Part shown: piece after piece, positions 19,001 to 63,500 of the stretch
Layout of the letters: every line of letters starts with the position of its first letter
How positions within the stretch are numbered: the first letter of the stretch is position 1
From: Liolophura sinensis
Lineage: Eukaryota; Mollusca; Polyplacophora; Chitonida; Chitonidae
Direction: 5' to 3'
Length of the DNA stretch: 64,000 nt
Assembly: GCF_032854445.1 (NCBI RefSeq)
Contig: NC_088304.1
Location: 34,519,551 to 34,583,550 of the forward strand
Made by a program: the position numbers and the translations under genes
The notes under the pieces: model-generated
Database searches by the model: none
Told to the model about the DNA's origin: nothing
The model's input: the letters and a program-made list of their open reading frames with translations, nothing else

Positions 19001-20524
19001 GTACGAGCTTACCTGAAACCAGTAAGTGTGTTAAGCGGGTTTGGAAGTACGAGCTTACCTGAAACCAGTAAGTGTGTTAGGCGGGTTTGGATGTACGAGC
19101 TTAGCTGAAACCAGCAAGTGTGTTAGGCGGGTTTGGATGTACGGGCTTACCTGAAACCAGTAAGTGTTGTAGGCGGGTTTGGATGTACGAGCTTGGCTGA
19201 AACCAGTAAGTGTTGTAGGCGGGTTTGGATGTACGAGCTTAGCTGAAACCAGTAAGTGTGTTAAGCGGGTTTGGATGTACGAGCTTACCTGAAACCAATA
19301 AGTGTGTTAGGCGGGTTTGGAGGTACGAGCTTAGCTGAAACCAGTAAGTGTTGTAGGCGGGTTTGGATGTACGAGCTTAGCTGAAACCAGTAAGTGTTGT
19401 AGGCGGGTTTGGATGTACGAGCTTAGCTGAAACCAGTAATTGTGTTAAGCGGGTTTGGAAGTACGAGCTTACCTGTTAAGCGAGTTTGGATGTACGGGCT
19501 CACCTGAGACCAGTAAGTGTTGTAGGCGGGTGTTGAAGTACGGTGCTTCTTCTTGAGCATAGGTAAATAGAAGTATTATATTTTCCGTGACGCAAGTATG
19601 AAATATCATATAAATAAGGACTTAGGTTTGGTACACTAACGTACGTCTATATATAGGAAGAGTGGCGTTTGTTACAGTGTACCGTCAGGCAGGGGTTGAT
19701 CTGGAGAAACCCGTGGTTTCACACTGTAACAGTGGGATGTCCTCTTGTACCATGGCTCTGGCGTTAAGTGAGTGTGGGTATCAGCTCTGGGCTGTGTACA
19801 TGGTAAGTGGTCTTCAATGATCTCTTTAAGCCACAGAAGAGCAGTTTCAAAAGATTTCAACATAATAGTTAAAGATCTCCGACTAACAATTTCCTATCAT
19901 TTGGTTTTCTTCAATATTTTAGTTTGAGTAAATTCTGGTCCTATAAATCATTTCGACACAAACCAAACGGGGAACCCCGCCTTAAGTAACCCGTGTCCAA
20001 GCTGTATAGACTGTTGTTCATTTCTACCTTTGCGATGACGTATATTCTGAGTTTCGTCATAGCAGACCAGTGATCTGTATATTCAGTGATTTAATTTATT
20101 TATTCGATTGTTCTTTCAAGTCATACGAATTGTTTGCTTACAGTTCTGTTTCGCTTCTTTCGGAAAACGTTAACAAACAACTCGCGTCATTTAACATTGG
20201 CATTTTAATTTTTTGGAGTTATCATTTTCTTCTTATTTTTTAATCGAGTTTTAATGCTCATGTCTAATTCCCAGGCACTATAGCTCCTGTTTTCTTCACC
20301 CAGAAAAGTGACTACCGTTTCGAAAAGTCAAAGTGGGTACTTAATATGTAAACAATCAATCAGTCGGTCAATCGTATACATGTATATAGATATGGGGTCT
20401 ATATCTACACGAGAAAGAGTCACCACGCAGAGGCACTGACATATAAGACTTTTTGTTCTTCACATTTCAGGGTGGTTACAAGGAATGGCAGCACAAAAAC
20501 ACAACAGACGGCAACAAAGAGTGA
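7002..20524 (+). CDS. MPST/TST-like two-domain sulfurtransferase
   Basis: Exons: 7002-7144, 8018-8222, 8827-8922, 10314-10539, 19693-19802, 20471-20524. All phases match; the total is 277 aa (272 from the in-frame ATG at 7017), against about 297 for MPST. The family moves sulfur from 3-mercaptopyruvate or thiosulfate to acceptors through a cysteine persulfide. The inactive N-terminal rhodanese domain shows REHIPGA, RAWWMFK and [16 protein letters not shown]. The C-terminal domain shows [20 protein letters not shown], then VDLEKPVV and the active loop C235-N-S-G-M-S-S-C, then a GGYKEW end. The loop resembles MPST (CGSGVTAC) more than rhodanese (CRKGVTAC), so MPST-like is the better guess. The exon 4 donor is GTTAGT. 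Intron 4 (9.2 kb) carries a Gypsy element and a minisatellite. A 14-codon upstream ORF (ATG at 6983) overlaps the start codon region. No clear mitochondrial presequence is seen. Confidence 0.9.
7497..7725 (-). repeat. SINE family C
   Basis: Located in sulfurtransferase intron 1. The plus strand reads CTTGGGGCTTAACGTCGTACTTAG and ATATGACGACGAGGAAT (the conserved tail), then CTCAGTGCTGAGTGC and CCGATCTGGGTTTGATCCCG (box B region). Its head is partly lost. Confidence 0.7.
8413..8664 (-). repeat. SINE family A, full length
   Basis: Complete minus-strand copy in intron 2 of the sulfurtransferase gene. The tRNA-like head (GGGGGCCTCCGTGGCC on the minus strand, box B near 8575-8590) is at the high-coordinate end; the tail ends at 8413. 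Confidence 0.85.
9130..9345 (+). repeat. tRNA-derived SINE, family D
   Basis: A box B sequence (GTTCGAATCC at about 9190) is followed by a body with CACTGGGGTCCTCCTTCCAGT, then AACTGAATATTCTTGCGTAA and an AATAAATAAG tail. The last part resembles the tail of family A but the body differs. Confidence 0.6.
10110..10241 (+). repeat. SINE family A, 3' half
   Basis: Plus-strand copy lying just before exon 4 of the sulfurtransferase gene. It contains CCGTCATAATGCTGGCCGCC, AGTGAAATATTCTTGAGTAC and GGCGTAAAACACCAG, then AAATAAATAAATG. Confidence 0.75.
11085..11328 (-). repeat. tandem copies of the conserved SINE tail (families B/C)
   Basis: Three successive segments of about 80 bp each carry CTTGGGGTTTTACGTCGTAC...TTTTCAGTCATGTGACGACGAGGA. 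A fourth begins at about 11311 and is cut by the retrotransposon at 11328, resuming at 17979. The tail domain alone is repeated; no bodies or heads lie between the copies. Confidence 0.75.
11329..11571 (-). repeat. 3' LTR of the Gypsy element
   Basis: 243 bp, from TGTTGCCCTTCC to GATCGCTACA on the plus strand. It differs from the other LTR at four positions. Confidence 0.95.
11572..11583 (-). other. polypurine tract of the Gypsy element
   Basis: The minus strand reads AGAGAAGGAGAG directly beside the 3' LTR, the expected place and composition for the plus-strand DNA primer. Confidence 0.8.
12067..16402 (-). pseudogene. broken Gypsy pol (PR-RT-RNaseH-IN)
   Basis: Pol is open from about 16402, in the -1 frame relative to the MYND ORF, with an overlap down to 16316. 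The protease has its D-T-G-A motif near 16247. The reverse transcriptase has the YLDD motif near 14873 and the RNase H region follows. Integrase has an HHCC zinc motif and D, D and E core residues spread over two frames. Lesions: a TAG stop near 15222 just before the RT core, a frame break near 13335 inside the integrase core between its first two Asp residues, and another near 12570, after which the C-terminal tail ([13 protein letters not shown]) continues in a different frame to 12067. Normal expression would use a -1 ribosomal frameshift; GGAAAAC at 16373-16367 is a weak candidate slip site. Confidence 0.9.
16316..16534 (-). CDS. MYND-type zinc finger ORF between gag and pol
   Basis: A 72-aa ORF. 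Its ATG (16534-16532) shares a base with the gag stop, giving TGATG, so reinitiation after gag translation is plausible. Residues about 10-50 hold a MYND pattern: C-V-Q-C, then CTGC, YC, DC and a final H-K-Y-V-C. MYND fingers bind zinc and usually mediate protein-protein contacts. The gag protein upstream already ends in a CCHC knuckle, so this is a second, different zinc module. The frame is intact, unlike pol. It could be a separate protein or, if a frameshift joins it to pol, the N-terminus of a Pol polyprotein. Confidence 0.8.
   Translation of the reverse strand: MARNESPPGCVQCGKMLTKALQCTGCNSVAYCSIDCQTVHWPSHKYVCSAIQQLENHEIVYGQNEQPELKYR
16534..17679 (-). CDS. Gypsy gag with CCHC zinc knuckle
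   Basis: An intact frame of 381 aa from the first in-frame ATG (17679); the same frame extends to a GTG at 17703. Gag forms the particle that packages the element RNA. The middle ([20 protein letters not shown] and following) is helical and capsid-like. Near the C-terminus there is C-X2-C-X4-H-X4-C ([14 protein letters not shown]), preceded by a second Cys pair (CQNC) and followed by a basic tail (KARKRVGKG). This is the usual nucleocapsid layout. Gag ends in TGA at 16534, overlapping the next ORF. Confidence 0.9.
   Translation of the reverse strand: MGSVETEFEIKALLYQQAPEKLLDTINKLKIPVKLEDSGKTEWLRAIEKYIAVCSADEEDGPPRLDQLLKTLDTAMKGSKQVHADEKSADNHKVFKKDLKFTGQINGSAGISFANVIRQLQTAELKGYSEAEILDAVVTAVHPSQRLRSYLEGKTDLDLPVLRKLLRRYFKEDSATDLYKLLCEASQNTKEDTLDFTLRILDLGQKVVFASREDDSGLMYDPLLVRRRTLRSIHTGLRDMAVSQDMKELLEGNPTDEEIVDAVTKSMSAYEERQTKSGTVKIKKAGVHSAQVDRETRDDTVDNVTALVRDLKTEVMAMREELAKRQTKGGCQNCRKSGAEKCNHCFICGSEEHFKAGCKARKRVGKGNRSGNDNRSPQRGE
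17716..17732 (-). other. primer-binding site of the Gypsy element
   Basis: The minus strand reads TGGCGAGCTTGCCAGGA, three bases inside the 5' LTR. It begins with TGG, complementary to a tRNA CCA end. I cannot name the tRNA with confidence. Confidence 0.7.
17736..17978 (-). repeat. 5' LTR of the Gypsy element
   Basis: 243 bp, TG...CA, paired with 11329-11571. It should carry the element promoter on the minus strand. Confidence 0.95.
17979..18322 (-). repeat. SINE family C split by the Gypsy element
   Basis: This is the remainder of the SINE whose end lies at about 11311-11328. It reads GTTGTACTTAAAAATTTTTC, then AAGACGACGAGGAGTCATTAG, a long body and a degraded head near 18300. Confidence 0.8.
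18461..18721 (-). repeat. SINE family A, full length
   Basis: Minus-strand copy with tail at 18461 and tRNA-like head ending at the GGCCACGGAGGCC box at about 18720. It is moderately diverged and is followed by an A-rich run. Confidence 0.8.
18777..19535 (+). repeat. 46-bp minisatellite in sulfurtransferase intron 4
   Basis: About 16 copies of a 46-bp unit (GCTTACCTGAAACCAGTAAG, then TGTGTTAGGCGGGTTTGG and a variable TGTACGA) end about 160 bp before exon 5. Copies differ at a few positions and one near 19475 is shortened. Every unit carries a good donor site on each strand: CCA|GTAAGT on plus and CAG|GTAAG on minus. Confidence 0.95.
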
Positions 20525-26500: not shown

Positions 26501-29500
26501 GTCATGGATACCACCACAGTTCTGCTCGGTTTTACTTCGACCATAATGCAGGCTGCTATCATATGAGTGAAATATTCCTGAGTGCAGTGTAAAACACCAG
26601 TCAAATAAATATAGCATATAATAGCATGTAAAAGGTTAGGTACCTTAGAGCTGATTTTAGATCAGCTAAACAAAGATAAAAGACCACAGTTTTTAATTAC
26701 CATGGAACCCCATCAATGAAATAAATATGACAGCGGAATTACCCCACAAGCTTAGCCAATTTGACACATCGTATCAAAACATGAAAACTTGCCCTTCAGA
26801 ACATGATCACAGGAACAACCCAGATGGAGGGAGCTATCTTGGTCGTTGCGGCTACTGACGGTGCCATGCCTCAGACGAGGGAACACATTCTGCTTGCCAA
26901 ACAGGTACGTACATGAATTTGTTCTCTGCATGCCTGTCATGTTTATCCCTACATGGATGCCCCTGTCCTATATCCCTGTTATATCCAATCTTGTCATGTT
27001 CATCCCTACATGGATGCCCCTGTCCTGTATCCCTGTTATATCCAATCTTGTCATGTTCATCCCTACATGGATGCCCCTGTCCTGTATCCCTGTTATATCC
27101 AATCTTGTCATGCTCATCCCTACATGGATGCCTCTGCCCTGTATCCCTGTTATATCCAATCCTGTCATGTTCATCCCTACATGGACGCCCCTGCCCTGTA
27201 TCCCTGTTATATCCAATCCTGTCATGTTCATCCCTACATGGACGCCCCTGCCCTGGATCCCTGTTATATCCAATCCTGTCATGTTCATCCCTACATGGAC
27301 GCCCCTGCCCTGTATCCCTGTTATATCCAAACTTGTCATGTTCATCCCTACATGGATGCCTTTGTCCTGTATCCCTGTTATATCCAATCCTGTCATGTTC
27401 ATCCCTACATGGATGCCTCTGTCCTGTATCCCTGTTATATCCAATCTTGTCATGTTCATCCCTACATGGACGCCTCTGTCCTGTATCCCTGTTATATCCA
27501 ATCTTGTCATGTTCATCCCTACATGGACGCCCCTGCCCTGTATCCCTGTTATATCCAAACTTGTCATGTTCATCCCTATATGGATGCCCCTGTCCAGTAT
27601 CCCTGTTATATCCAATCCTGTCATGTTCATCCCTACATGGATGCCTCTGTCCTATATCCCTGTTATATCCAATCTTGCCATGTTCATCCCTACATGGACG
27701 CCCATGTCCTATATCCCTGTTATATCCAGTCTTGCCATGTTCATCCCTACATGGACGCCCATGTCCTATATCCCTATTATATCCAGTCTTGCCATGTTCA
27801 TCCCTACATGAACGCCCATGTCCTATATCCCTATTATATCCAGTCTTGCCATGTTCATCCCTACATGGACGCCCCTGTCCTATATCCCTGTTACATCCAA
27901 TCTTGCTCTGTGTATTGTGAGTTCCATGTAACTTGTCCACTGATGTTGAGTTTTAAACTTGTATCCTTATAAATGCCATACAGTTTGAAAGATGATTACA
28001 GTTTGAATGATTAAGAGTTCCATAAATGGATACAGGAATGTTTCTTTAAGTGTTTCACAGTGGCTGGTATTGAGATTGATGATTTCAGTAAATTCACTGA
28101 AAATCACAGACCAGTGATTGGACACATGTGGATATATTTGCCACAGAGTTAGTCTCCTGGTGTAGATTTTCCTGTGCAGTGGTTGACAGACAGACACACA
28201 GATCAGTACAGACAGACAGACAGACCAGTACAGACAGGCAGATGGGTGCAGACTGACAGACTGGTACCGACAGACAGACAGACCGGTACAGACAGACAGA
28301 CCGACTGGTACCGACAGACAGACAGACTGGTACTGACAGACTGGTACAGACAGACAGACAGACTGGTACAGACAGACCGATTCAGACAGACAGACCGATT
28401 CAGACAGACAGACAGACAGACTGGTACAGCAGACATTCTTTGGTGTAGGTAATAAATAAGTAGTGTGTTTTAACTGTTAAGCAGCATGTTTATGTGTTTC
28501 AGATTGGGATCTCAAGCCTGGTGGTGTTCGTAAACAAGGCAGATGCCGCAGACAAGGAAATGTTGGAGCTAGTAAGATAATCAGTAACCTTCACTCTACA
28601 TGTTGTCACATCATGAACAGTTTAGGCCACCATTGAAAATATGTTTGTTCAGGTTAACTCAATCCTCTAAAACAGACCCTATCACAAGGGATTTTGGTGG
28701 AATTTCTTTTTATTTTACTCTTAATGTTAGCTTCTTCAAATTAGCCAGTAAAAATTAGTCTTCTTCAAATTAGTCTTTTTCATTAGCCGAAATGAAACAG
28801 AAATATTTCCCTAGTGACTGATCTACTGTATTTTTCTCTGATAGAGCTGTGTTAGCAGCAAAAAAGCTTTTTTTGAAAACTAGCCTTAAGTAAAATTATT
28901 CCAAACTGTGAGAATTTTGTATTAAATGTCCAAAGGCTTTTGAAGACATAGATACATCTCTGGCAATTTCTCAGCTCGGGATGACTGCTATTTGGTAATT
29001 ATAGTGTGGAGGGATGAGCAGTTGTTTCAAAAGTCTGGTAACATGTACACGTACGTACACATGTTTATCACAGGTTGTTGTTGATATCTGCTGAGTCATT
29101 ATAATGTAGTACTCGTCTGAGTCCACTGCACGGATATCATCCATTTATGACAACGAATTCAGTTACACTCATCTTTGTATTGTTTATAATACACTTCCTT
29201 AGTTCAAGTAGGGGGCCTACTTAATAATAGTTGAAGCAATGTAGTAAGCTGTAGGATTCACTCAGTCAGTGTATTTACCATGTCCCAATTGACCCTTTAA
29301 CAGTTTTGTGTCAGAGGCCCCAGTTTCCTGGAAACTGTTTTAATGGTCTTTCACCCGATGTATGCTTCATTTTAGTGTTTTCTTTGCCTTTAAACTCTAT
29401 TTTGATAATTCACAGTACTGACTCTCTGTTCGTTATGTTTCAGGTGGAGATGGAAATCCGAGAGTTGCTGACAGAGTTTGGGTTCGATGGTGATAATACA

Positions 29501-32500
29501 CCCATTATAATCGGCTCCGCCTTAAATGCCTTAGAGGTGAATGAGAGAGATCGGGGGCCAGATTCATGAAACCTGTGTTACAATGCGAACATGTAACTGC
29601 TATGGCAACGTAATGTCAACAGTCCTGGTTGCCATTGTATACCCTAATTCAACCTTTTCTCGTAGGAAAGAGCAACTTTCAGTGCAATTTGTGCACATTT
29701 TTAATTTCATTTTGGAGACCAAACTACATTGGTTGGATTGGCCAGTTTCAGGACTTCACACAAAGTTTAGTTTTATCAGTCAACAAAGAATAATGTTTTC
29801 AGAATAGGCTTGAATAAACATCTTGCAAACATGCGAAAATTACAGTCATAGATTAGTCATAAATTATAGACATAGTTGCGTGCATGTAACTCCGCAAATG
29901 CTTCACGAGACCTACATGTACCCCTGGGGTCCATTGTACAGTGCCTCCCTTACGGGTTAGAACCTGACAAAAGACGGTCTTGATTCCTCACGTGAACACT
30001 TGACATAAAACTAACTGCGTTATTCCACTTAATGAACTTTTCCAGTGGAAAAGGAAAAAAGTAGTAGAAATAAAATGGCTTATTTGATGTCGTTTTAATT
30101 TCATTTTTGGAGCATACTGGAACCCAAATCCTGAGTAGAAAAATTAACTCATTCTTGTTTTTCTTTCATACAAACTGTGGATCTATATATATATATGTAT
30201 ATATATTGTGTATATACATGTACACTTAACTTAGTTGACCAGGTGGTTGATATTTTTTTAACAGTGCCTCAAACCCATGTTACTTTCAGGATAAAACCCC
30301 AGAACTAGGCGTGGAGAAGATTAGGGAGCTTTTGGCCGCTGTTGACACTCACATCCCCACCCCGGTCAGAGAGCTGGACAAGCCCTTCTACCTGCCGATA
30401 GAGGGCGTCTGCAGCATTCCAGGTAATCTAACAAAATACTACACAGTCATGTTTGTGTAAACCTTCTGTTCCACTGATTAGTTTGACGTAATATGGGAGT
30501 AGTGTAACTCTGAAAAATGAAAGGCTCAGTTTGACTCGATATTTCAGCACATTATTTAGCCATTATCAGGAGAGCTATTTGAAGTTTTCCTGATGTTGGC
30601 AAAATGAGCAAAAATATCGAGTCAAAATGAGACTTTTCTGCATTCTGGGTAATGATAGTATATCATCTGTATTCCAGGTAAATGGAAACATTTCAACGGT
30701 TAGAGCGTCTTCCTCGATGTTAGGAGACCTGGAATAAAACCCAGATCGGGTCATAGCAAAGACTTTAAAAATGATACTTGTTGCTGCCTCACTTGGCGCC
30801 TAGCACTGAGAGGTTAAAGCAAAGACACAGGACTAGTTGGCTGGGTATCAGTATAATATGACTGGGTTGGGTGTCATGTCTGGTGTCATGTCTCGTGGCG
30901 TCAGCACTTTGGAAGCGTGCCTGTACTTGACCTGCCATAACTTACAAGAAGACACAGTATACATGTTTATACACAAATCGAAGGAATCTTTGTCGTCATT
31001 TGACTGAAAATTGTACAAGTACAACGGAAACACCCAAGCATACATTTTCATGGTTTTATTTTTGCAGGGAGGGGGACAGTAGTCACAGGTAAACTGGAGC
31101 GTGGCATCCTGAAGAAAGGAGACGAATGTGAAATTCTGGGCCACAACAAATCCCTAAAATCCATAGTCACTGGTAAGGTTGCAAGTGTTTTGCATTTTGT
31201 GAAGTTGGTGATGACCAAGTGAAGATCAGAAAGGTCTTGTTTAGTGCTCGTTGTATCAGTTAAGAATACTCATTATAATGAGACACATAAAACTTTCAGT
31301 AAATATCAGGGATCTGTTTACCATATCATATGTGTATGTTGTATGCTCTACATGTGTATGTGGATATGTGATGTATGCTGTACACACAGGTGTGGGGATG
31401 TGTTGTAATGTTGTATGCTGTACACACAGGTGTGGGGATGTGTTGTAATGTTGTATGCTGTACACACAGGTGTGAAGATGTGTTGTAATGTTGTATGCTG
31501 TACACACAGGTGTGGAGATGTATTGTAATGTTGTGTGCTGTACACACAGATGTGGTGATGTGTTGTAATGTTGTATGCTGTACACACAGGTGTGGAGATG
31601 TATTGTAATGTTGTGTGCTGTTCGCACAGGTGTGGTGATGTGTTGTTATGTTGTGTGCTTTTCGCACAGGTGTGGAGACGTGTTGTAATGTTGTACGCTG
31701 TACACACAGGTGAGGAGATGTGTTGTAATGTTGTATGCAGTATACAGAGGTGTGGTGATGTGTTGTTATGTTGTGTGCTGTTCGCACAGGTGTGGAAATG
31801 TGTTGTAATGTTGTATGCTGTACACACAGGTGTGGTGATGTGTTGTTATGTTGTATGCTGTACGCACAGGTGTGAAGATGTGTTGTAATGTTGTATGCTG
31901 TACACACAGGTGTGGAGATGTGTTGTAATGTTGTATGCTGTACACACAGGTGTGGTGATGTGTTATGTTGTATGCTGTACACACAGGTGTGGAGATGTTT
32001 TGTAATGTATGCTGTACACAAGGTGTGGTGATGTGTTGTAATGTTGTACGCTGTACACACAGGTGTGGAGATGTGTTGTAATGTTGTATGCTGTATACAC
32101 AGTGTGGTGATGTGTTGTAATGTTGTATTCTGTACACACAGGTGTGGTGATGTGTTGTAATGTTGTATTCTGTACACACAGGTGTGGAGATGTTCCATCA
32201 GCTGCTGGAGAGAGCGGAGGCTGGGGATCAGTTGGGGGCTCTCCTGAGGAACATCAAGAGAGATCAGGTCAGGAGAGGGATGGTTGTGACCAAGGCGGGG
32301 TCTGCGAGTATGCACAACAAGATAGAGGCACAGGTAATGAGTTAGGGTACCTGGATAACAACATAGAGGCACAGGCTATGACAAATCAGAGGGTGGATAC
32401 ATACACAAGATAGAGGCATAGGTCATGATAAATCAGAGGCACAGGTAAGGAGAGAGCATACATACACAAGATAGAGGCAAGGTCATGACAAATCAGAGGC

Positions 32501-34291
32501 ACAGGTAAGGAGAGAAGATACATACACAAGATAGAGGCACAGGTAATGATTTAGGGTACCTGGATAACCACATAGAGGCACAGGCTATGACAAATCAGAG
32601 GGAGGATACATACACAAGATAGAGGCAAGGTCATGAAAAATCAGAGGCACAGGTAAGGAGGGGTGGATACATGCATAATTAGATAGAGGCACAGGGATGA
32701 TACATACACAAGATAGACACACAGGGGATAACAGATCAGAGGCACAGATGATGAGGGATGATACATACCAAGGCACAGGCAATGGAGTAATGACACAGGT
32801 ATGGTCAAACTGATGTGTGTTGTGTATTTCATAGGTGTATTTCCTTTTACAGCATGGTCAAACTGACGCATGTTGTGTATTTCATAGGTGTATTTCTTTT
32901 TATGGCATGGTCAAACTGACGCGTGTTGTGTATTTCATAGGTGTATTTCCTTTTATGGCATGGTCAAACTGACGCGTGTTGTGTATTTCATAGGTGTATT
33001 TCCTTTTATGGCATGGTCAAACTGACGCGTGTTGTGTATTTCATAGGTGTATTTCCGTTCTAGATCCTGCTCACAGTGATGTGTTGTGTGTGTATTTCAC
33101 AGGTGTATTTCTTGAACAAGGATGAGGGAGGGCGCTCTAAGCCCATGGTGCCTCACTTCCAGACACAGGTGTACAGCCTCACCTGGGATTGCCCAGCCTT
33201 CATTGAAATCCCTGATAAAGACATGGTCATGCCTGGAGAAGATGCTAAAATTTTATTCAATTTGAAGAAGAAAATGGTAAATTATTTGGCCTTTTTATTG
33301 TTAAGTAAAAGCAATTGGCTATGACGAGCTGTTTGTATGAGGCTTTGCTGTCAGAGTAGAAGAGCAGATCAATCAATTTTTCACTTAAGATTTTAAACCT
33401 CAATATAACACAATTTTTTGGGGTATTTTTCTTAATGTAACACTGGTTAAGTGTTTCCAACTTCATCTCTCATCTCACATATCAGAATTGGTTACACAGT
33501 TGACAGTTGATGAAAATCTCTTCATCTATAAACTTGTAATGTTGATACAGAATACGATTTACTAAATGAAAAACTTCGATTCTCAGCAGGAAAATTCCCA
33601 GGTAGTGTATTTCACAAGCAGGCCACATTAAACTTTTTTCAATCTCAGTCAATCTGTCAGGATTAAATTAATTCCAGACAAATTGACTGAATAAAACTTG
33701 TATCAAAACTGAAGTTTTTTAATTGTATTTCTCTTGCATGGGGCTGAAAAAAGTGCACAAATTTTTTGTTTTACGGGTGAGCCAACGCAAAAAATCCAAA
33801 ATTGGAATGAGAAGAAAATCAAGAATCCTCCTTTTTATGTTATTTGATCTTAATGTCTTTTTATGATTTCCCTGTTTTTCACGGCTTTCCACTCAAATAA
33901 ATTTGTCTTTAACAGGAATAATTACTGGATCAGTGGGCAAAATTCCTGCGAATTTTTCAGCATTACTTCTATATTTACTCCTTTTGAAGAAAACAATTCA
34001 TTCTGCCTGTAAAACAAAAATTTTAATTAGTGTGGCCTAAATTAATAAATAAATGTATATTTGTATGTACAAAGAATTTAAGGATGCATAGTGCACGGTT
34101 TATTCTGTTGCATTGATTGCTGTATTCTATACCAGGTGTTAGAGAAGGGCCAAAGGTTTACCATGCGTGATGGAGCTGGCACTTTGGGGTACGGGGTCGT
34201 GACCTCAGTTCTCCCGGACATCGACATGGCTGAGTACGAGGAGGATATCAGGAAAAAGAAGAAAGCTGCGATTAAAGAAGCGGAAAGCTGA
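23564..34291 (+). CDS. TUFM: mitochondrial elongation factor Tu
   Basis: Exons: 23564-23603, 23855-23901, 24531-24681, 25184-25350, 26800-26904, 28503-28571, 29444-29536, 30290-30422, 31068-31172, 32182-32333, 33103-33276, 34136-34291; 463 aa with all phases consistent. This GTPase brings aminoacyl-tRNA to the mitochondrial ribosome. The first 50 residues are basic and non-acidic, fitting a targeting peptide. G1 is GHVDHGKT (64-71), the switch I ERARGITI is at 101-108, G3 DCPGH at 126-130, G4 NKAD at 181-184 and G5 SAL at 218-220. Domain 2 starts around GRGTVVTG and domain 3 carries KPMVPHF and [10 protein letters not shown]. Length matches the family (about 452). Introns 5, 9 and 10 carry large tandem arrays, and introns 3, 4 and 8 carry SINEs. 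Confidence 0.96.
24687..25054 (-). repeat. SINE family C, near full length
   Basis: Lies in TUFM intron 3, beginning about 5 bases after the donor. The tail is TATGCTTGGGGTTTTATG; the head contains CCAGGGTTTGATCTCC and ends at GGCCACTGAGGCA near 25054. Confidence 0.8.
25541..25893 (+). repeat. SINE family B, full length
   Basis: The best copy of its family, in TUFM intron 4. The head (ACCGGCCCGGATAGCACAGT, TGGTAGAGCG) carries box A and the GGATCAATCCTTGATCGAG region carries box B. The tail GACTGAAAAATTGTTGAGTA then CGACGTTAAACCCC runs into (CACT)n. Confidence 0.9.
26228..26423 (+). repeat. SINE family A, head-truncated
   Basis: Plus-strand copy in TUFM intron 4. It contains CCTGCGGATGGTCGTGGGTT, then AGTGAAATAATCTTGAGTAT and a long AAATAAATAAAT tail. 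Confidence 0.8.
26425..26612 (+). repeat. SINE family A, second copy in tandem
   Basis: It directly follows the copy at 26228-26423 in the same orientation and is more diverged, with its own ATAAATA end near 26612. Confidence 0.7.
26935..27903 (+). repeat. 57-bp minisatellite in TUFM intron 5
   Basis: Seventeen copies of a 57-bp unit (TGTCATGTTCATCCCTACAT, then GGATGCCCCTGTCCTGTATC and CCTGTTATATCCAATCT). 57 is 19 codons and the unit lacks stops in several frames, so long frames run through both strands. These are by-products of the repeat, not genes. The array starts 30 bases after exon 5 but shares no sequence with it that I can see. Confidence 0.97.
28185..28435 (+). repeat. GACA-rich microsatellite in TUFM intron 5
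   Basis: Runs of GACA interspersed with CTGGTACA/CTGGTACC, about 250 bp, ending 70 bp before exon 6. Confidence 0.95.
30698..31043 (+). repeat. SINE family C
   Basis: Plus-strand copy in TUFM intron 8. The head is near GGTTAGAGCGTCTTCC and the tail GTCGTCATTTGACTGAAAAT ends at CACCCAAGCATAC, only about 24 bases before exon 9. Confidence 0.75.
31361..32181 (+). repeat. 40-bp array made of the TUFM exon 10 acceptor
   Basis: About 20 copies of a 40-bp unit (TGTTGTAATGTTGTATGCTG, then TACACACAGGTGTGGAGATG). The last copy is the real 3' splice site: ACACACAG|GTGTGGAGATGT, where exon 10 starts at 32182. Each unit thus repeats about 28 bases of intron end and the first 12 bases of the exon. Small deletions occur in a few copies near 31960-32020. 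Confidence 0.95.
32318..32800 (+). repeat. degenerate array made of the TUFM exon 10 donor
   Basis: The end of exon 10 (ACAAGATAGAGGCACAG|GTAATGA) recurs about a dozen times, complete or in part, through the first 460 bases of intron 10. The copies are mixed with ATGACAAATCAGAGG and GGATACATACAC segments, so this is a higher-order repeat rather than a simple tandem. Confidence 0.9.
32803..33102 (+). repeat. 53-bp array made of the TUFM exon 11 acceptor
   Basis: About five copies of a 53-bp unit (CATGGTCAAACTGACGCGTG, then TTGTGTATTTCATAGGTGTA and TTTCCTTTTATGG) lead up to the true acceptor GTGTATTTCACAG|GTGTATTTC at 33103. Each unit mimics that acceptor and the first bases of exon 11. Confidence 0.93.
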
Positions 34292-35455
34292 GAATATTCC
34301 TGTGCAAACAGAAAGGTGTTTTACGATGGGGCAGTGATGCTTTGTGCAGGGGAAACTACATATATGTATGCTAGGGCTGCTTAGTTCTTCAGTATAGGAA
34401 CTGGGATGGTTGTGTTCCCAGGTACAAATATTTCCCCTGCTTTATAAGACTGCGCCCTCGTGGATGTAAAAAAATAACAGACGTGGACAAACGCAGGTGT
34501 GAAGGATTCACCTGTTCAGGATGTACACCTGTGCATTTTGTGTGTGTCTCATTATGATGGGGAATTTACCTCAGGTGTGTTTCTTACCTGTGCTATTCTT
34601 TAGGATCATCTGCAGTGTGTTTAGAAAGTACATGAAAAATACGGGAGCTATCAGCATGGATGATTTGGAAAAGAATAATATAATACATCAGTCTGCTCAC
34701 TGATGGGAGCGCATTCTTTTGTAGGTCAACCGACACCATTTATTTTGCTATAAGTGAGAATTAAAAAATATTAGAATGTATTTCCTCATGCATATTTGGT
34801 ATTCTTTCTTCAGTAATGGTTGCCTCTTACAGTGCTTTTATCATCTGAAAAGTTGATCACCTGTTCATTTTGCAAGCACTAATGGCAAGATACTTATTTG
34901 CAAAGTAGGTCATCTCTTTGTTGCAGTTTTGTGTAATATGAAAATATATGGTTTTCTTCACCAAATCTTTGTGTTTTTGTTCCTCAAGATTCTCCTTAAG
35001 GATGCACCTCGTGATTTACCACCTTTTGATCATGATGAGGTGGCATACTGGAATCCATGTCAAACTTGCACCTCCACTTTACTGCAGCTCTAGCATGTTT
35101 AACTGTGGGGAGATTTGCTTGGGAGGATGTGACTTTGGACACTGGGTTCTTCAAATCACGCTTGTGGCAGCCATTTTATAAGCGATAAATCATGGAGTAT
35201 ATTGTTAAACACCAATGAAATACATGTAAACAAGAAAAATGATGGATCTGTCTTCCAAAGCAGAAAATGCTGTGAGAGCAGGGGAATCTACAAAATTCCC
35301 TGTCCAAGTCCGGGTTTGAACCGGTGGTAAGAGGAGTATGGTGTGTGTTACTGGTCCTGTTAATCATACATGTATCTAATAAAACAGATTTTAAAATTCT
35401 GACGCGAGATACGTCAACATAAGACAAGTGAATATTTTCTTGAAAATTCACACAG

Positions 35456-35749
35456 ACTGCTTCGGTGGCCTAATGGTGAGAGCGTCCACCTCGAAGTCAG
35501 GAGAGCCGGTATCAAAACTGGGTCGGGTCATACCAAAGAAGGAAAATTGGTTGGCCCGGTGTCAATATAATGTGATTTGGTGGGATGTAATGTCTGGTGT
35601 CTTCGGTGTGATGTTTCAGTGGAGGCAGCACTTTGGCCGCATGAATTTGCCTTGCACAAGAAGACACAATACATGCACACACACCTAATGACTCCATATG
35701 ACTAAAAAATTGTTAAGTGCGACGTTAAACTCCAAGCATACATACATAC
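35456..35749 (+). repeat. SINE family C
   Basis: Head CTTCGGTGGCCTAATGGTGA with box A; body with CAGTGGAGGCAGCACTTTGG; tail ACTAAAAAATTGTTAAGTGC, GACGTTAAACTCC, then (CATA)n. Confidence 0.85.
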
Positions 35750-35840
35750 GTGTTCAGACATATTTATTTCACACAAGGACACTTGTGTACTTATCTACAT
35801 GTATTTTCTATGTGTTCTCCCTTAAATGTTCTTGCCAAAT

Positions 35841-36090
35841 GTATTTATTTATTTCATGTATGTGTTTTACGCCGTACTGAAGAATATTTCACATATAAGA
35901 TGGTGGGAGGAAACTGAGCAGAGCCCGGGGGAAACACGACCATTGGCAGGTTGCTGGAAGACCTTCCCACACATGGCCGGAGAGGAAGCCAGCATGAGCT
36001 GGACTTGAACTCACAGCTACTGCATTGGTGGGAGGCTTCTGGGTCATTGCGTTGTGGTGACGTGCTAACTCCTCGACCACGAAGACCCCC
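35841..36090 (-). repeat. SINE family A, near full length
   Basis: Minus-strand copy; tail at 35841, tRNA-like head ending near GACCACGAAGACCCCC at 36090. Confidence 0.8.
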
Positions 36091-36602
36091 TGCTAAATGT
36101 ATGGCTTGGTTCATAAATGCACTACTGCAAACAGCACAGTGCCCTCTGATTAACATGGTCCAGAGTTCAATTCCTTGGGTCGTCAGCAGATTTACATCAT
36201 GTCCAGTTTCACTCAACCTTTTTTCCCCAATAGTCCAATATGGAGATTTTCTTGAAAAAACTTTATAATCAGTCAAATACTGGACTGAACTTTGGTGAAA
36301 TTTTATGTAAACTGACACAAGTACGATATTCATTTAGATTGTTTTCACCGACTTGTCATGCACTCTCTAAATTCAACATATACATATTTTAAATGACTCA
36401 AATACATATAAATATATAAGTAACAAAATACAACTGTCATCACAAAATGGACACATAACCACAAAATTTAAGCAGGCAGTCTAGCATTTAAAAATGGTCA
36501 ATAAACTGATGATTTTTATAATCATTATGATAAAAAATGGACCACTAAAATGAGGACGGAGTGTAAAATATAGCGCAGCGTAAACTCAGAATGACGGATA
36601 AG

Positions 36603-37113
36603 TCCCTCAGTGAGGTGTGTAGCTGGTGTCAAGATGGTAGAAACCCCCTTGTGAATTCACCGTGTGATAACACAGTCCCTCAGTGAGGTGTGTAGCTGGT
36701 GTCAAGATGGTAGAAACCCCCTTGTGAATTCACAATGTGATAACACAGTCCCTCAGTGAGGTGTGTAGCTGGTGTCAAGATGGTAGAAACCCCCTTGTGA
36801 ATTCACCGTGTAATAACACAGTCCCTCAGTGAGGTGTGTAGCTGGTGTCAAGATGGTAGAAACCCCCTTGTGAATTCACCATGTGATAACACAGTCCCTC
36901 AGTGAGGTGTGTAGCTGATGTCAAGATGGTAGAAACCCCCTTGTGAATTCACCATGTTATAACACAGTCCCTCAGTGAGGTGCGTAGCTGGTGTCAAGAT
37001 GGTAGAAACCCCCTTGTGAATTCACCATGTTATAACACAGTCCCTCAGTGAGGTGCGTAGCTGGTGTCAAGACGGTAGGAACCTCCTTGTGAATTCACCG
37101 TGTGATAACACAG
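36603..37113 (-). repeat. 73-bp array made of the NTAQ1 stop-codon end
   Basis: Seven head-to-tail 73-bp units, starting at 36603, 36676, 36749, 36822, 36895, 36968 and 37041. The unit at 37041-37113 is the real end of the last NTAQ1 exon and contains its TGA; six more copies follow it in the 3' UTR direction. The coding part ([14 protein letters not shown]) is conserved in the NTAQ1 family, so the exon is the source. Confidence 0.95.
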
Positions 37114-40100
37114 TCCCCCAGCCAACTGACGGATCCATGCTGATGAAATCGGCAATGTTGTTGTTTGACTCTGAAAAACAGAAGTTTGGGGTTTGTATAC
37201 AGGGATAAGGTGAAGGTGTTATAATTACACATACCTGGGGTTTGTATACAGGGATAAGGTGAAGGTGTTATAATTACACATACCTGGGGTTTATTCCGGC
37301 ATACAGGGATAAGGTGGCGGTGTTTTCAGTTACATTACCTGGGGATTGTATACAGGAATTGGCTGGAGGTGTTTTACTTACACATACCTGGGGATTGTAT
37401 ACAGGGATAAGGTGGAGGTGTGTTACTTACACATACCTGGGGTTTATTCCGGCATACAGGGATAAGGTGGCGGTGTTTTCAGTTACATTACCTGGGGATT
37501 GTATACAGGAATTGGCTGGAGGTGTTTTACTTACACATACCTGGGGATTGTATACAGGGATAAGGTGGAGGTGTGTTACTTACACATACCAGGGGTTTGT
37601 GTACAGGGATAAGGCAGAACTGTTTTACTTACACATACCTGGGGACTGTATACAGGGATAAGGTGGAGGTGTTTTCAGTTACATTACCTGGGGATTGTAT
37701 ACAGGAATTGGCTGGAGGTGTTTTACTTAGACATACCTGGGGATTGTATACAGGGATAAGGTGGAGGTGTGTTACTTACACATACCGGGGGTTTGTGTAC
37801 AGGGATAAGGCAGAACTGTTTTACTTACACATACCTGGGCATTGTGTACAAGGATAAGGCGGAGGTGTTTTACTTACACATACCTGGGGATTGTATACAA
37901 GGATAAGGCGGAGGTGTTTACTTACACATACCTGGGGACTGTGTAGAAGGATAAGGCGGAGGTGTTTTACTTACACATACCTGGGGATTGTATACAGGGA
38001 TAAGGTGGAGGTGTTTTACTTACACATACCTGGGGATTGTATACAAGGATAAGGTGGAGGTGTTTTACTTACACATACCTGGGGATTGTATACAGGGATA
38101 AGGTGGAGGTGTTTTACTTACACATACCTGGGGATTGTATACAAGGATAAGACGGAGGTGTTTTACTTACACATACCTGGGGATTGTATACAAGGATAAG
38201 GTGGAGGTGTTTTACTTACACATACCTGGGGATTGTATACAAGGATAAGGTGGAGGTGTTTTACTTACACATACCTGGGGATTGTATACAAGGATAAGGC
38301 GGAGGTGTTTTACTTACACATACCTGGGGATTGTATACAGGGATAAGGTGGAGGTGTTTTACTTACACATATCTAGGGATTGTATACAGCGATAAGGTGA
38401 AGGTGTTTTACTTACACATACCTGGGGATGGTATACAGACATAAGGTGGAAGTGTTTTACTTACACATACCTGGGGATTGTGTACAAGGATAAGGTGGAG
38501 GTGTTTTACTTACACATACCGGGGGATTGTATACAAGGATAAGGCGGAGGTGTTTTACTTACACATACCTGGGGATTGTATACAAGGATAAGGCGGAGGT
38601 GTTTTACTTACACATACCTGGGGATTGTATACAGGGATAAGGTGGAGGTGTTTTACTTACACATATCTAGGGATTGTATACAGCGATAAGGTGAAGGTGT
38701 TTTACTTACACATACCTGGGGATGGTATACAGACATAAGGTGGAAGTGTTTTACTTACACATACCTGGAAATTGTGTACAAGGATAAGGTGGAGGTGTTT
38801 TACTTACACATACCGGGGGTTTGTATACAAGGATAAGGTGAAGGTGTTTTACTTACACATACCTGGGGTTTGTATACAAGGATAAGGTGAAGGTGTTTTA
38901 CTTACACATACCTGGGGATTGTATACAAGGATAAGGTGGAGGTGTTTTACTTACACATACCTGGGGATTGTATACAGGGATAAGGTGGAGGTGTTTTACT
39001 TACACATACCTGGGGATTGTATACAGGGATAAGGTGGAGGTGTTTTACTTACACATACCTGGGGTTTGTATACAGGGATAAGGTGGAGGTGTTTTACTTA
39101 CACATACCGGGGGTTTGTGTACAGGGATAAGGTGGAGGTGTTTTACTTACACATACCTGGGGTTTGTATACAGGGATAAGGTGGAGGTGTTTTACTTACA
39201 CATACCTGGGGTTTGTATACAGGGATAAGGTGGAGGTGTTTTACTTACACATACCGGGGGTTTGTGTACAGGGATAAGGTGGAGGTGTTTTACTTACACA
39301 TACCTGGGGTTTGTATACAAGGATAAGGTGGAGGTGTTTTCTGCCAGCTCCCATCCTCGCCCAACATATGGGTTCTGTCAGATGCAAAGTGACGCAGATA
39401 TGTTTCAGCAGAAATCACTCGAAAGTACCTTAGAAGACAAATAACAGGACAACGAGCTTTTGATAAATTCACGATAGTTAGCGAAACAAAATCGCACTGC
39501 AAAGATGCAAATATCAGAGCTGTTTAAAAGTTGGTTTCCTTGTGTCTTGCCGGTGTGGAACATAGTTCAATCAGACCCTGGTGGTATGTTGTTGTGGTTT
39601 CAAAGCTCAATACACGAATTTGATAAAATGCTGCCTTGTTTAAGGCAGAGTGATAGGTTCCATTGGTGTCTTATGTTGTATATAAAGATTTCATTGATGA
39701 TACCAGTGGGGGGGCCTCCATGGCTGAGATGGTTAGGATCTTCTGACTAATGCGGATGTTGGGAGTTCAAGTCCAGCTCATGCTGGCTTCTTCTCCGGAC
39801 ATATGTGAAAAGGTCTGCCAGCAATCTGCACACGGACATGGTTATCCCTAGGCTCTGCCAGGTTTACTCCCACCATAATGGTGACCGTTGTCGTATAAAC
39901 GAAACATTCTTGCATATGGCGTAAAAACATCAATCAAATAAATAAATATTTTCAGTACCAGTAATCCACACACAACTTCATGGGATATTTTAACTCCTTA
40001 TCCTTGTATATTACAGTTTGATCAACACTATGCTTAGTTCATTAAAAACTTTATAACAATATTGGTGATTTACTACCATATTCTGACTGCGCATGCTTGA

Positions 40101-60500: not shown

Positions 60501-63500
60501 ATCAGTGTGTGGGTGGAGGCAACTGAAATGTCTGGCGTAAACTATACCGCCCTCTGACAGGCACGTGACAGTCCGGCTGACTCAAAGCCGCTGCCGAAAG
60601 AGCAGAGACAGCTGCATGGATTCGAACACACAACGGCATTGGTCAACAGCCGGCCAGATGCATGGCGATAGCACTCCAATCGCTTAACCGAATTAGGGAG
60701 GGATCATGTATCAATAAATAAATAAATACATTGGTTATTGATGTGCGATTTATAGGTTATACTATATGTAATTAATATCATTGTAAATTAAATGTGATGA
60801 CAACACAACATTTTGAATAATTCCAGTGACGTTTTAATGAACTGCAATTAACATCACCGCATTCTTTTTACCAAATTCTGCTTAAGCCATGGTGCTAGGG
60901 GACACGAACAGTTGGAATAGTAACGCTAAGTACCGGATTTCACCGGTTAGGTGGGGACATTGGCATGTGGTCACTGCTCCACGTTTACTCCCTGTGCTTT
61001 ACGTCATCTATGATAAGTGTGAATACCTGCAGCGGAGGAAGAATATCTGTAGCCATATCCAGGTAATGACCACACAAATTAAAGAGGTGGGAAATCCGAA
61101 AATCATCCAGCTTCCAAATGAGACTCCAGACTCAATTCCATACTTCTGGAAAAGTCTAGGTTTTTAACCAGACAAGAACAAAAACGAAAGGAAATAAGGA
61201 TGGCGATTCATGGGATTGTGCTTTTACTGCCACAGATTTACTAAAAATAGTTTTAAATTGTTTTCGTACATTTATAATTTTTTCCATATCTGTATTATTC
61301 CATAATATCGAAAAACACAATTTAATATCAATTGAAACCATTATATCCAAAACACGCGAGAGTCTTCAGCACAACTTTTGTGTGTTTTGTGTGTAACTGG
61401 GTGTATATCAAAAGGAATTTCTGTTCATAAAGAGAATGGATGAAATGCTAACTGTTCATTTAGAGGCGCCTACATGTTTATAAGATCATTATCTGTTGAA
61501 ACAATAAACATTTAAAGTAAATAAGGATGACCCACATTTCTGCTTGTCCTTGCAAAACGACATTCGGACCAGTTCCAATCAGCGTAGAAATTCCGCCAAC
61601 GTTAGCTGCATATGCAATACACAGAGACATCCCTTTACACAGACGTGAGTACTCCCGGTCGCTGAAACCCTCGGTCGGAACATCGTCCGCTATTCTGTTG
61701 GGATAAACAAAACTTGAAGAGTACAGATAAAATGAACTGGAAAAACATACTGAAGAAAGAAGGAGCTTATAAACAAGACAATACCGTTTCACTGGTCTTA
61801 CATCAATCATCCTTGGGCTTAAATCCTGAAGTCAGTTGAGTGAACGGTGTCGCTTTCACTATTTTAGGACAATCACTGAGGTACGTGTACCTTATTCCCG
61901 AACCGAGTGAACCAATGTTATCTTGTTATGTATTTATTTATTTGACTGGTGTTTTACGCCGTACTCAAGAATATTTTACTTATACGACGGCGGCCTACAT
62001 TGTGGAGGGAGGAAACCTGGCAGGACCCGGTTACTAGCAAACCTTACACATACAGCCAAACCACCTCGGCCACGAAGGTCCCCTGCTAACTTGTAATACA
62101 TGAGCAGGCTACTAAGTTAACTTACCAGTTTTGCCCACAAATCGTCAACGCAGGGATGAACAATACCCCACTCTGGTTGGGCCCGTATTACTTTAGGCAG
62201 GTACTCCCCTCCCTCCAGTGAACAGTTATACATGTTACTTTATATACCCGATCTTACAGCATCGGAGATATTAGATCTGTTAACGAACAACAAATGGCGT
62301 TTCCGTGTCGTACAGCCCCATTTTATATGTGTGCTATATTTGTACTTCGTTCGATGATGATTCTTTTGGGCATGGTGTTCGGGCATACAAGACGTTTCTA
62401 CCGAAGCGTTTGCCTCAACAGTTAGAATAGAGCCCTCGCCCAGGTGAAGAGACGAGAGGACTGATTTCTTCTGTTACATGTGACCAGTTACCAACCCTCA
62501 CATTGTCGTCGCTGCCTTGGTTTATATCTTCATACTGATGGCGTTTTGTATTGGAACCCCCTATTTTTGCTGTTGCCCCTTTCGTATTAATGTCATATTT
62601 AAACTAAGAACATTTTAATTGCAATCTTTGCGGCAATTCTGGGAAGAGTTGAAATTCAATTTATTTCGACTTACACCACCGTGTTTCCAATTTGAGTCAT
62701 ATCGTTGTCAATGGCGGGTTTCTCAGGGACGCCATTTGTCTGTTTCACGTCTTGGACGTCAGCCATTTCCAGAGACTGATTGTCCATGATCAGACCAGAA
62801 TTATCCAAACCTGAAGCCAAAGAACTAAAGGTCAATGTTTAGAATGTCCAAACCTGAAGCCAAAGAACTAAAGGTCAATGTTTGGAATGTCCAAACCTGA
62901 AGCCAAAGAACTAAAGGTCAATGTTTGGAATGTCCAAACCTGAGGTCAAAGAACTAAAGGTCAATGTTTGGAATGTCCAAACCTGAGGTCAAAGAACTAA
63001 AGGTCAATGTTTGGAATGTCCAAACCTGAGGTTAAAGAACTAAAGGTCAATGTTTGGAATGTCCAAACCTGAGGTTAAAGAACTGAAAGGTAAATGTTTC
63101 GAATTTTCAAACCTGAAACGATAAGAACTAAAAATAAGTGATTTGAATATTCATCCGTGAAGCCAAAAAACTAAAGGTAAGTGTTTAGAATGTTTAAATC
63201 TGAAACCTAAAACCGTAAATTATGAGTTAAATGCTTTGAATTTCTGTCATGTTGTAACTATCTAAAGTGAACACGTCTTTATTTACATTGATGAGGCAGT
63301 AATCTATCTCCAACAATGGAGAACTCTCCCTGAATAATCATTCCGCTACGAAATACACATGATTTGATTCACGTCAATAGACGTGACAACAAAACATTAT
63401 AATTTCCAAACCTAAAACCGTAAACCAAATGATAATTGTTTTAAATATCCGTCCTAAAACCGTAAACCATGGGGCATAAGAGCTATAAGGTCTAAATTCG

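Follow-up and report, generated by a model that had tools for sequence, protein, structure and literature searches.

The window, by which we mean the whole 64,000-nucleotide stretch of Liolophura sinensis DNA analysed here, carries tandem arrays at exon borders of TUFM, NTAQ1 and an SLC13 gene. The joined TUFM exons align with PDB mitochondrial EF-Tu chains over residues 6-408 of 424, and the NCBI L. sinensis TUFM protein is 100% identical to the query from residue 245 to 420, a segment that spans both array introns and the intron after them. Of the 125 residues of the NTAQ1 exons, 1-122 align with N-terminal glutamine amidohydrolase in the PDB, and the NCBI L. sinensis NTAQ1 protein matches the entire joined query at 100% identity, spanning the 2133-nt array intron. 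In both genes the annotated protein uses the exon-proximal junctions. The joined SLC13 exons align with PF00939. The features are as follows.

31173..32181, + strand: TUFM intron before exon 10 (intron 9), 1009 nt, 85% locally repeated
31372..32193, + strand: TUFM exon 10 acceptor-edge array, 40-bp unit x 20.8 (TRF)
32182..32333, + strand: TUFM exon 10, ending KIEAQ, by PDB EF-Tu homology
32334..33102, + strand: TUFM intron 10, 769 nt, 97% locally repeated
32334..32795, + strand: TUFM exon 10 donor-edge array, degenerate, right limit set by eye
32801..33111, + strand: TUFM exon 11 acceptor-edge array, 53-bp unit x 5.8 (TRF; TTTCATAG|GTGTATTTC)
33103..33276, + strand: TUFM exon 11, by PDB EF-Tu homology
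36601..37121, - strand: NTAQ1 coding-end (stop-codon) array, 73-bp unit x 7.1 (TRF)
37171..39303, - strand: NTAQ1 intron 5, 2133 nt, 99% locally repeated
37187..39340, - strand: NTAQ1 exon 5 donor-edge array, 49-bp unit x 43.7 (TRF)
39304..39428, - strand: NTAQ1 exon 5, upstream end picked by splice score
62675..62810, - strand: SLC13 exon with copied 5' edge; splice sites present, the exon itself without homology support
62804..63204, - strand: SLC13 acceptor-edge array, 43-bp unit x 9.3 (TRF; GGCTTCAG|GTTTGGA)

The first-pass annotation had claimed that several arrays copy the exon boundary they adjoin, and this was borne out: TRF confirmed six arrays at the places noted, five at splice edges (three in TUFM, at the exon 10 acceptor and donor and the exon 11 acceptor; one at the NTAQ1 exon 5 donor; one at the SLC13 acceptor) and one at a stop codon, and each contains the edge of the exon it touches. 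Altogether, TRF found 12 arrays in the window with a period of at least 20 and a score of at least 60, of which six (starting at 11105, 18776, 26935, 28186, 55195 and 57727) were without visible exon-edge content. Intronic minisatellites repeat units a few tens of bp long head to tail, and the window arrays resemble them in unit size, in arrangement and in a unit-to-unit match of 89-96%, falling within the usual definition of roughly 10-100 bp at high identity; unlike in ordinary intronic minisatellites, the chiton unit contains an exon edge with its splice site.

At the TUFM exon 10 acceptor, the last unit extends 12 nt into the exon (ACACACAG|GTGTGGAGATGT), and these 12 exonic nt are common to most copies. 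The following intron is made of donor-edge copies on its left and acceptor-edge copies on its right. The donor-edge array has a TRF core at 32397-32549 (60 bp x 2.5), and nine copies of the edge 16-mer (at most three mismatches) lie within 445 nt of the donor, sharing 8-18 nt with the exon and keeping GT in five; its units had been described as carrying GTAATG, which they do, although GTAAGG and GTCATG copies occur as well. Copies of the exon 11 acceptor share 9-11 nt with that exon, and those of the SLC13 acceptor 7 nt. The NTAQ1 donor unit consists of 37 nt of the end of exon 5 (11 codon-encoded residues), common to most copies, plus 12 nt of intron start (GTATGTGTAAGT), and only the final 16 nt of the intron (AACTTCTGTTTTTCAG) lie outside any unit. 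GT is kept in 37/39 of these copies and AG in 33/39, and 31 GT copies equal the real donor in score. In the coding-end array, the first unit represents the final part of the coding region (18 residues) and the remaining units lie past the stop codon. A donor called at the last NTAQ1 exon proved false and was removed before edges were counted (239 to 238). The striking part is that exon-derived repeats have replaced the body of the intron, to 99% in NTAQ1 and 97% in TUFM intron 10.

The arrays had further been attributed to a recurring process and not to one satellite family, and two lines of evidence agree. Genome searches, in which match counts are lower bounds since common words were skipped, returned no matches beyond their own locus for the arrays of TUFM intron 10 and of NTAQ1, and a single 69% match, on contig C8, for the TUFM 40-bp array; the TUFM and NTAQ1 units searched are thus not dispersed over many unlinked places as a satellite family would be. 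Similar arrays moreover occur at exon edges of chaperonin (CCT) and kinesin genes. The edges profiled numbered 44 within the window and 194, defined by homology, outside it (93 edges in an earlier round), and among the outside edges copies were found at 6/194, two in CCT3, one in another CCT gene and three in kinesins, with 6-97 exonic nt in common; one of these arrays has a 109-bp unit. These counts are small and clustered by gene (2/6 in CCT3). The genes with edge copies are unrelated and spread over contigs C1, C8, C9, C10 and C11. All six outside edges are donors (6/99 vs 0/95 acceptors, p 0.03), an excess absent from the window, with its two donors and three acceptors. In CCT3, where the exon join rests on PDB CCT gamma chains and no Liolophura protein of that name was among the matches listed (120 of 216), the unit is 22 codons long, a multiple of three, and open, and 10/10 donor copies keep GT at real-donor strength.

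Two candidates were rejected. At a kinesin acceptor (L071) the splice score had chosen an array copy, the real acceptor, without exonic content, likely lying downstream; a CCT3 acceptor array stops at the border and was left out of the edge-array count. An alternative count of 6/193 includes L071 and omits L100, a kinesin donor on C9 with just 6 exonic nt common to its copies, and the 6/194 count has L100 in place of L071; L071 still stands in the recurrence-profile, TRF-edge and AG|GT counts. At the C10 kinesin edge no TRF array extends to the edge.

Our preferred explanation, which we consider probably correct, is that a tandem duplication spanning the exon border was followed by minisatellite expansion into the intron. 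A duplication straddling the border, taking in between 6 and 97 bases of exon in the examples observed, would leave one intact, full junction beside the exon and place the other copy inside the intron or past the stop codon; the intronic copies would then expand as a minisatellite, in some cases until they make up almost the entire intron, while splicing would stay at the exon-proximal site. The change would be near-neutral because splicing remains at that site, and the expansion tolerated because one intact junction is kept beside the exon. We infer near-neutrality, expansion by slippage or unequal exchange, and a choice of splice site by position; strict neutrality would be surprising, since the copied donors of NTAQ1 and CCT3 equal the real donor in strength. 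The direction is from exon to intron where the exonic part of the unit encodes conserved residues, as in TUFM, NTAQ1 and CCT3, in which it specifies the PDB-conserved VEMF, IEAQ, VYFL, PPPYPCI and LVPGGGATEMA. Identity to the exon copy drops with distance in NTAQ1 (rho -0.53, p 0.0004), SLC13 (rho -0.91, p 0.0007) and the C1 CCT gene (rho -0.83, p 0.04), the trend not being significant in the other 4/7 arrays.

The association with edges was compared with chance in several ways. A permutation control, one version of the check suggested in the first-pass annotation, covered 50 complete introns and 14 array rows using edge 16-mers at up to two mismatches: words from an intron's own edges were found in its arrays in 8/28 pairs and words from foreign edges in 0/1372 (8/28 and 9/1372 at up to three mismatches). 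Counting the two CCT3 rows once, 7/13 arrays were edge-derived, against 2.8 expected under a null with arrays collapsed (p 0.0045), which is partly circular because the original NTAQ1 intron was set to a 60-nt floor, or 0.9 under a null with present lengths (p 4e-6), which takes half of the TRF period for two CCT arrays (109 for 218 and 60 for 120). Outside the window the figure was 3/5, against 1.0 (collapsed, p 0.05) or 0.4 (present-length, p 0.004), so that the excess is carried by few cases. Repeats made up at least 30% of 8/50 introns, and edge-derived arrays were present in six of these eight vs 0/42 of the others. The proposal that existing introns grow in this way is supported by this repeat share and by the edge-derived arrays in the 50 introns.

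The most serious alternative, to which we give a minor share of belief, is chance placement, with minisatellites arising at a high rate throughout introns and a few seeds falling on exon borders. It accords with an array density that is similar in the window, at 0.188 per kb for scores of at least 60, and beyond it, at 0.201 per kb with a cut-off of 60 or 0.174 with one of 100, arrays amounting to 8-10% of bases. Nor does 20-mer recurrence over the 194 and 44 edges peak at the exon edge; it rises steadily into the intron, from 3.6% near edges to 8-10% at 200-320 nt outside the window and from 8.8% to 18-20% at 110-260 nt within it, so the majority of repeat bases lie away from edges. The six outside edges, one of them the C10 kinesin edge without a TRF array reaching the border, compare with about 2.1 expected from density and unit length (p 0.019) or, once 15% is allowed for coding sequence, about 2.5 (p 0.04). 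What argues against chance is the share of intron arrays that are edge-derived, 7/13 and, outside the window, 3/5. This border excess, about two- to eightfold, may be mutational, or it may be selective, in that a duplication just inside the intron may harm splice signals and one across the border may be harmless. It is possible, and we propose it tentatively, that minisatellites of this lineage arise preferentially at exon borders, with introns growing from their edges and their bodies becoming exon-derived repeats.

AG|GT is present at 10/11 edge arrays, but the AGGT core noted in all splice-junction units is largely splice-site consensus, as edges without copies have it at 34/113 acceptors and 61/114 donors. 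On a second, unlikely alternative, it would be mainly AG|GT borders that multiply, because each copy could serve as both acceptor and donor and the array might be removed stepwise, by recursive (ratchet) splicing. Consistent with this are the excess at edge arrays (10/11 vs 5.2 expected, p 0.0026), AG|GT sites lying inside the intron, as at ratchet points, at TUFM exon 10 and NTAQ1, and the dual-specific AGGT sites known from tandem repeats of human genes, polyubiquitin UBC being the case compared here (PMC10809524). The excess comes mainly from the window where it was first noticed, though, and outside it is not significant (5/6 vs 3.2, p 0.14). No selection on AGGT within arrays was seen (percentile 0.02-0.88 across seven arrays), in a column test biased towards the core, since its copies had been selected with a 16-mer surrounding it; exonic columns were likewise not consistently better retained than intronic ones (higher in 3/7 arrays). 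The copies of two kinesin donors lack AG (0/4 and 0/6), and opposite-sense splice sites are weak in most arrays, the exception being the TUFM exon 10 acceptor copies, with a GT score of about 4, AG in 20/20 and GT in 19/20 (the 20 counted include two from outside the array). The UBC case is similar in its tandem array of AGGT-bearing units adjoining coding sequence; unlike in the chiton, its repeated site is both donor and acceptor and its intron is a whole number of units long. Here, 0/14 array rows match both edges of their own intron, as those of a dual-specific splice-site intron would, and the lengths are not unit multiples (2133 vs 49; 769 vs 60 or 53).

An origin of these introns by tandem duplication of an AGGT segment from an exon (the Rogers model), a route the first-pass annotation had raised, is very unlikely. 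TUFM intron 10 and NTAQ1 intron 5 are nearly without non-repeat sequence (97% and 99% repeated) and the exon 10-exon 11 junction of TUFM is AG|GT, as this model would have it, but the window units, instead of being wholly exonic, contain intronic DNA (12 nt in NTAQ1, more in others), 199 nt ahead of the array are retained in TUFM intron 9, and the absence of two-edge matches and of unit-multiple lengths weighs against it as well. In the potato RdRp gene, a tandem duplication across an intron-exon border carried splice signals along, as here, and made a new intron (PMC4974935), whereas the chiton intron was lengthened by up to 44 copies with no sign of a new one. Fission yeast genes have several head-to-tail exonic AGGT copies that are spliced out (Zhu and Niu 2013, via PMC4974935); the multiple head-to-tail copies are alike, but there the intron spans copies of an exonic segment and in the chiton one splice site lies outside the array. 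In Drosophila, novel introns arose by tandem duplication of proto-splice sites (PMC2891723), again exonic DNA with AG/GY, but as intron gain within coding sequence and not as lengthening from an intron's own edge. Arrays of exon edges were not described in titles or abstract openings among the matches listed.

Because array and exon edge share sequence, the direction needs argument, and the reverse course, in which intronic repeats were absorbed as new exon ends, is scarcely credible given the conserved residues encoded by the exonic bases of TUFM, NTAQ1 and CCT3. Equally implausible is an assembly artefact of repeat collapse or expansion: near-identical units in up to 44 copies are hard to assemble, but the units differ (89-96% match) and edge copies turn up on five contigs, in genes unrelated to one another.

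Border-spanning duplication followed by expansion offers a concrete, testable path by which existing introns lengthen and lose the sequence they began with, the gene showing no evident harm. In these housekeeping genes the arrays also set near-identical splice sites in natural competition, and ordinary RNA data suffice to show which of them is chosen. A mutational cause of the border excess would mark exon edges as sites prone to duplication. If exon borders are indeed favoured birthplaces of minisatellites, the 30-40 or so copied donors, most of real-donor strength, would constitute a natural experiment in splice-site choice, and open arrays with a multiple-of-three unit, such as that of CCT3, could enter the exon as a new protein repeat.

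The existence of tandem arrays whose units copy the exon edge they adjoin is confirmed, as is their recurrence in the genome. TRF returned 27 rows in the window (part of a 609 Mb assembly) and recovered in place all six arrays that the first-pass annotation had described as built from exon edges, namely those at the TUFM exon 10 acceptor, exon 10 donor and exon 11 acceptor, the NTAQ1 exon 5 donor and stop-codon end, and the SLC13 acceptor. The gene models are supported by homology of TUFM to mitochondrial EF-Tu chains and of NTAQ1 to N-terminal glutamine amidohydrolase (both PDB), and by Pfam matches of SLC13 (PF00939) and the rhodanese gene (PF00581). Moreover, an NCBI Liolophura sinensis protein matches the joined NTAQ1 exons with 100% identity over the entire 125-residue query, another does so for TUFM residues 245–420, and in the annotated NTAQ1 and TUFM proteins the exons are joined across the arrays at the exon-proximal splice sites.

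The NTAQ1 unit consists of the last 37 nt of exon 5 and the first 12 nt of the intron, and some 40 copies (TRF 43.7) fill 99% of this 2133-nt intron, the final 16 nt of which (AACTTCTGTTTTTCAG) fall outside the units. Repeats make up 97% of the 769 nt of TUFM intron 10; its left part carries degenerate copies of the donor edge of exon 10, and its right part copies of the acceptor edge of exon 11. In intron 9, 199 nt remain ahead of an array in which the acceptor edge of exon 10 is copied about 20 times. Since the final coding bases of NTAQ1 are repeated beyond its stop codon, the process is not confined to splice sites. In TUFM, NTAQ1 and CCT3 the exonic part of the unit encodes conserved residues, which indicates that the copies there were derived from the exon. 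The window also contains the following repeats and retroelement-like sequences:

Window 26935–27905: 57-bp × 17 array, beginning 30 nt past the donor of a TUFM intron with 83% repeat content, yet without exon-edge sequence
Window 18776–19475: 46-bp array in the rhodanese gene, its unit including the donor-like CCAGTAAGTG, with no recognised exon adjoining it
Window about 12.1–17.7 kb, minus strand: retroelement-like ORFs (from ORF lists) between rhodanese exons
Window 11369–11536 and 17776–17943: near-identical stretches flanking these ORFs and resembling terminal repeats

From their look, the retroelement-like ORFs in this region (11369–17943) may be Gypsy-like.

The edge content of the arrays is specific. 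Across 50 complete introns from the window and from CCT, kinesin and P450 genes, with 14 array rows, a 16-mer of the intron's own edge was present in its array in 8/28 pairs, compared with 0/1372 pairs for foreign edges at ≤2 mismatches and 9/1372 at ≤3, a control that upholds the exon-edge match claimed at first pass.

Intron gain, which had been proposed alongside intron growth, is not supported: in none of the complete introns does an array match the two edges of its intron, and these introns therefore appear to have been lengthened rather than newly gained. Among the open-licence papers surveyed, the closest cases come from potato, where a duplication across a border created a new intron (PMC4974935, which cites the Rogers model and a fission-yeast case of AGGT in multiple copies), from Drosophila, with introns made by tandem duplication (PMC2891723), and from tandem repeats such as UBC, in which splice sites have dual specificity (PMC10809524). 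UBC and the AGGT model involve splicing between copies of one site, whereas here no array in a complete intron holds both intron edges. No title or abstract opening among the open-licence papers listed described introns filled by exon-edge arrays; the main text of a paper on the chiton genome (PMC12005716) uses the words "tandem" and "intron" a single time each, and the passages seen do not treat such arrays.

Border-spanning duplication followed by minisatellite expansion is the best explanation and the likely mechanism. A tandem duplication straddling an exon border would leave an intact junction at the exon and place the extra copy in the intron, where copies could then expand like any minisatellite. 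The copies look inert, because exonic columns are kept better than intronic ones in only 3/7 arrays and likeness to the exon copy drops significantly with distance in 3/7. Copied donors equal the real donor in strength in 31/37 NTAQ1 and 10/10 CCT3 copies, from which we infer that position determines the choice of the real site.

Outside the window, edges were taken from Pfam hits with the border chosen by splice score, using the rows for which sequence was retrieved: loci of 30/99 P450 rows, 30 loci plus four longer regions for 50 CCT rows, and 40 pieces for 132 kinesin rows, giving 42, 72 and 80 edges, respectively. An edge-centred 20-mer recurred at 6/193 outside edges and 5/44 window edges. 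After removal of one wrong acceptor and addition of a kinesin donor whose copies share 6 exonic nt, the outside count became 6/194 (0/42 P450, 3/72 CCT, 3/80 kinesin), in agreement with the proposed recurring process. The family difference (loci L004–L107), which rests on small numbers, is possibly linked to germline expression. One kinesin locus carries a further array:

L071 (G000:C9:4627288–4628612): 27-bp array that repeats a polypyrimidine tract and AG; it directly precedes a kinesin acceptor and seems to contain no exonic sequence

A preference of arrays for exon borders is plausible. The 20-mer recurrence profile does not peak at edges; outside the window, recurrence is 3.6% at the edge and climbs to 8–10% at 200–320 nt. 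With each array counted once (the two CCT3 rows taken as one array; that of SLC13, its intron incomplete in the table, left out), more arrays are edge-derived than expected.

Edge-derived arrays in the 50 introns, with expectations for array copies collapsed and for present lengths
All: 7/13; collapsed 2.8 (p 0.0045); present 0.9 (p 4e-6)
Window: 4/8; collapsed 1.7 (p 0.047); present 0.5 (p 0.0005)
Outside: 3/5; collapsed 1.0 (p 0.05); present 0.4 (p 0.004)

The excess, though modest, has the same direction throughout; it comes from a small number of introns that cluster by gene. Edge-derived arrays occur in 6/8 introns with at least 30% repeat and in 0/42 others.

The AGGT core noted at first pass is indeed present at 10/11 edge arrays (5.2 expected, p 0.0026), but edge arrays outside the window gave 5/6 against 3.2 expected (p 0.14). 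Splice edges in this genome often read AG|GT in any case, as do 34/113 acceptors and 61/114 donors without edge copies, and AGGT columns within arrays are retained no better than other columns. We therefore read AGGT as mainly splice consensus; a filter favouring AG|GT borders is possible.

In the CCT3 array (locus L067, G000:C8:53403500–53413400, reverse strand), units of 66 nt (22 codons) run from position 7427 and stay open in frame with their exon to about 7859. If a later donor copy were used, 22-residue repeats would be added to the chaperonin.
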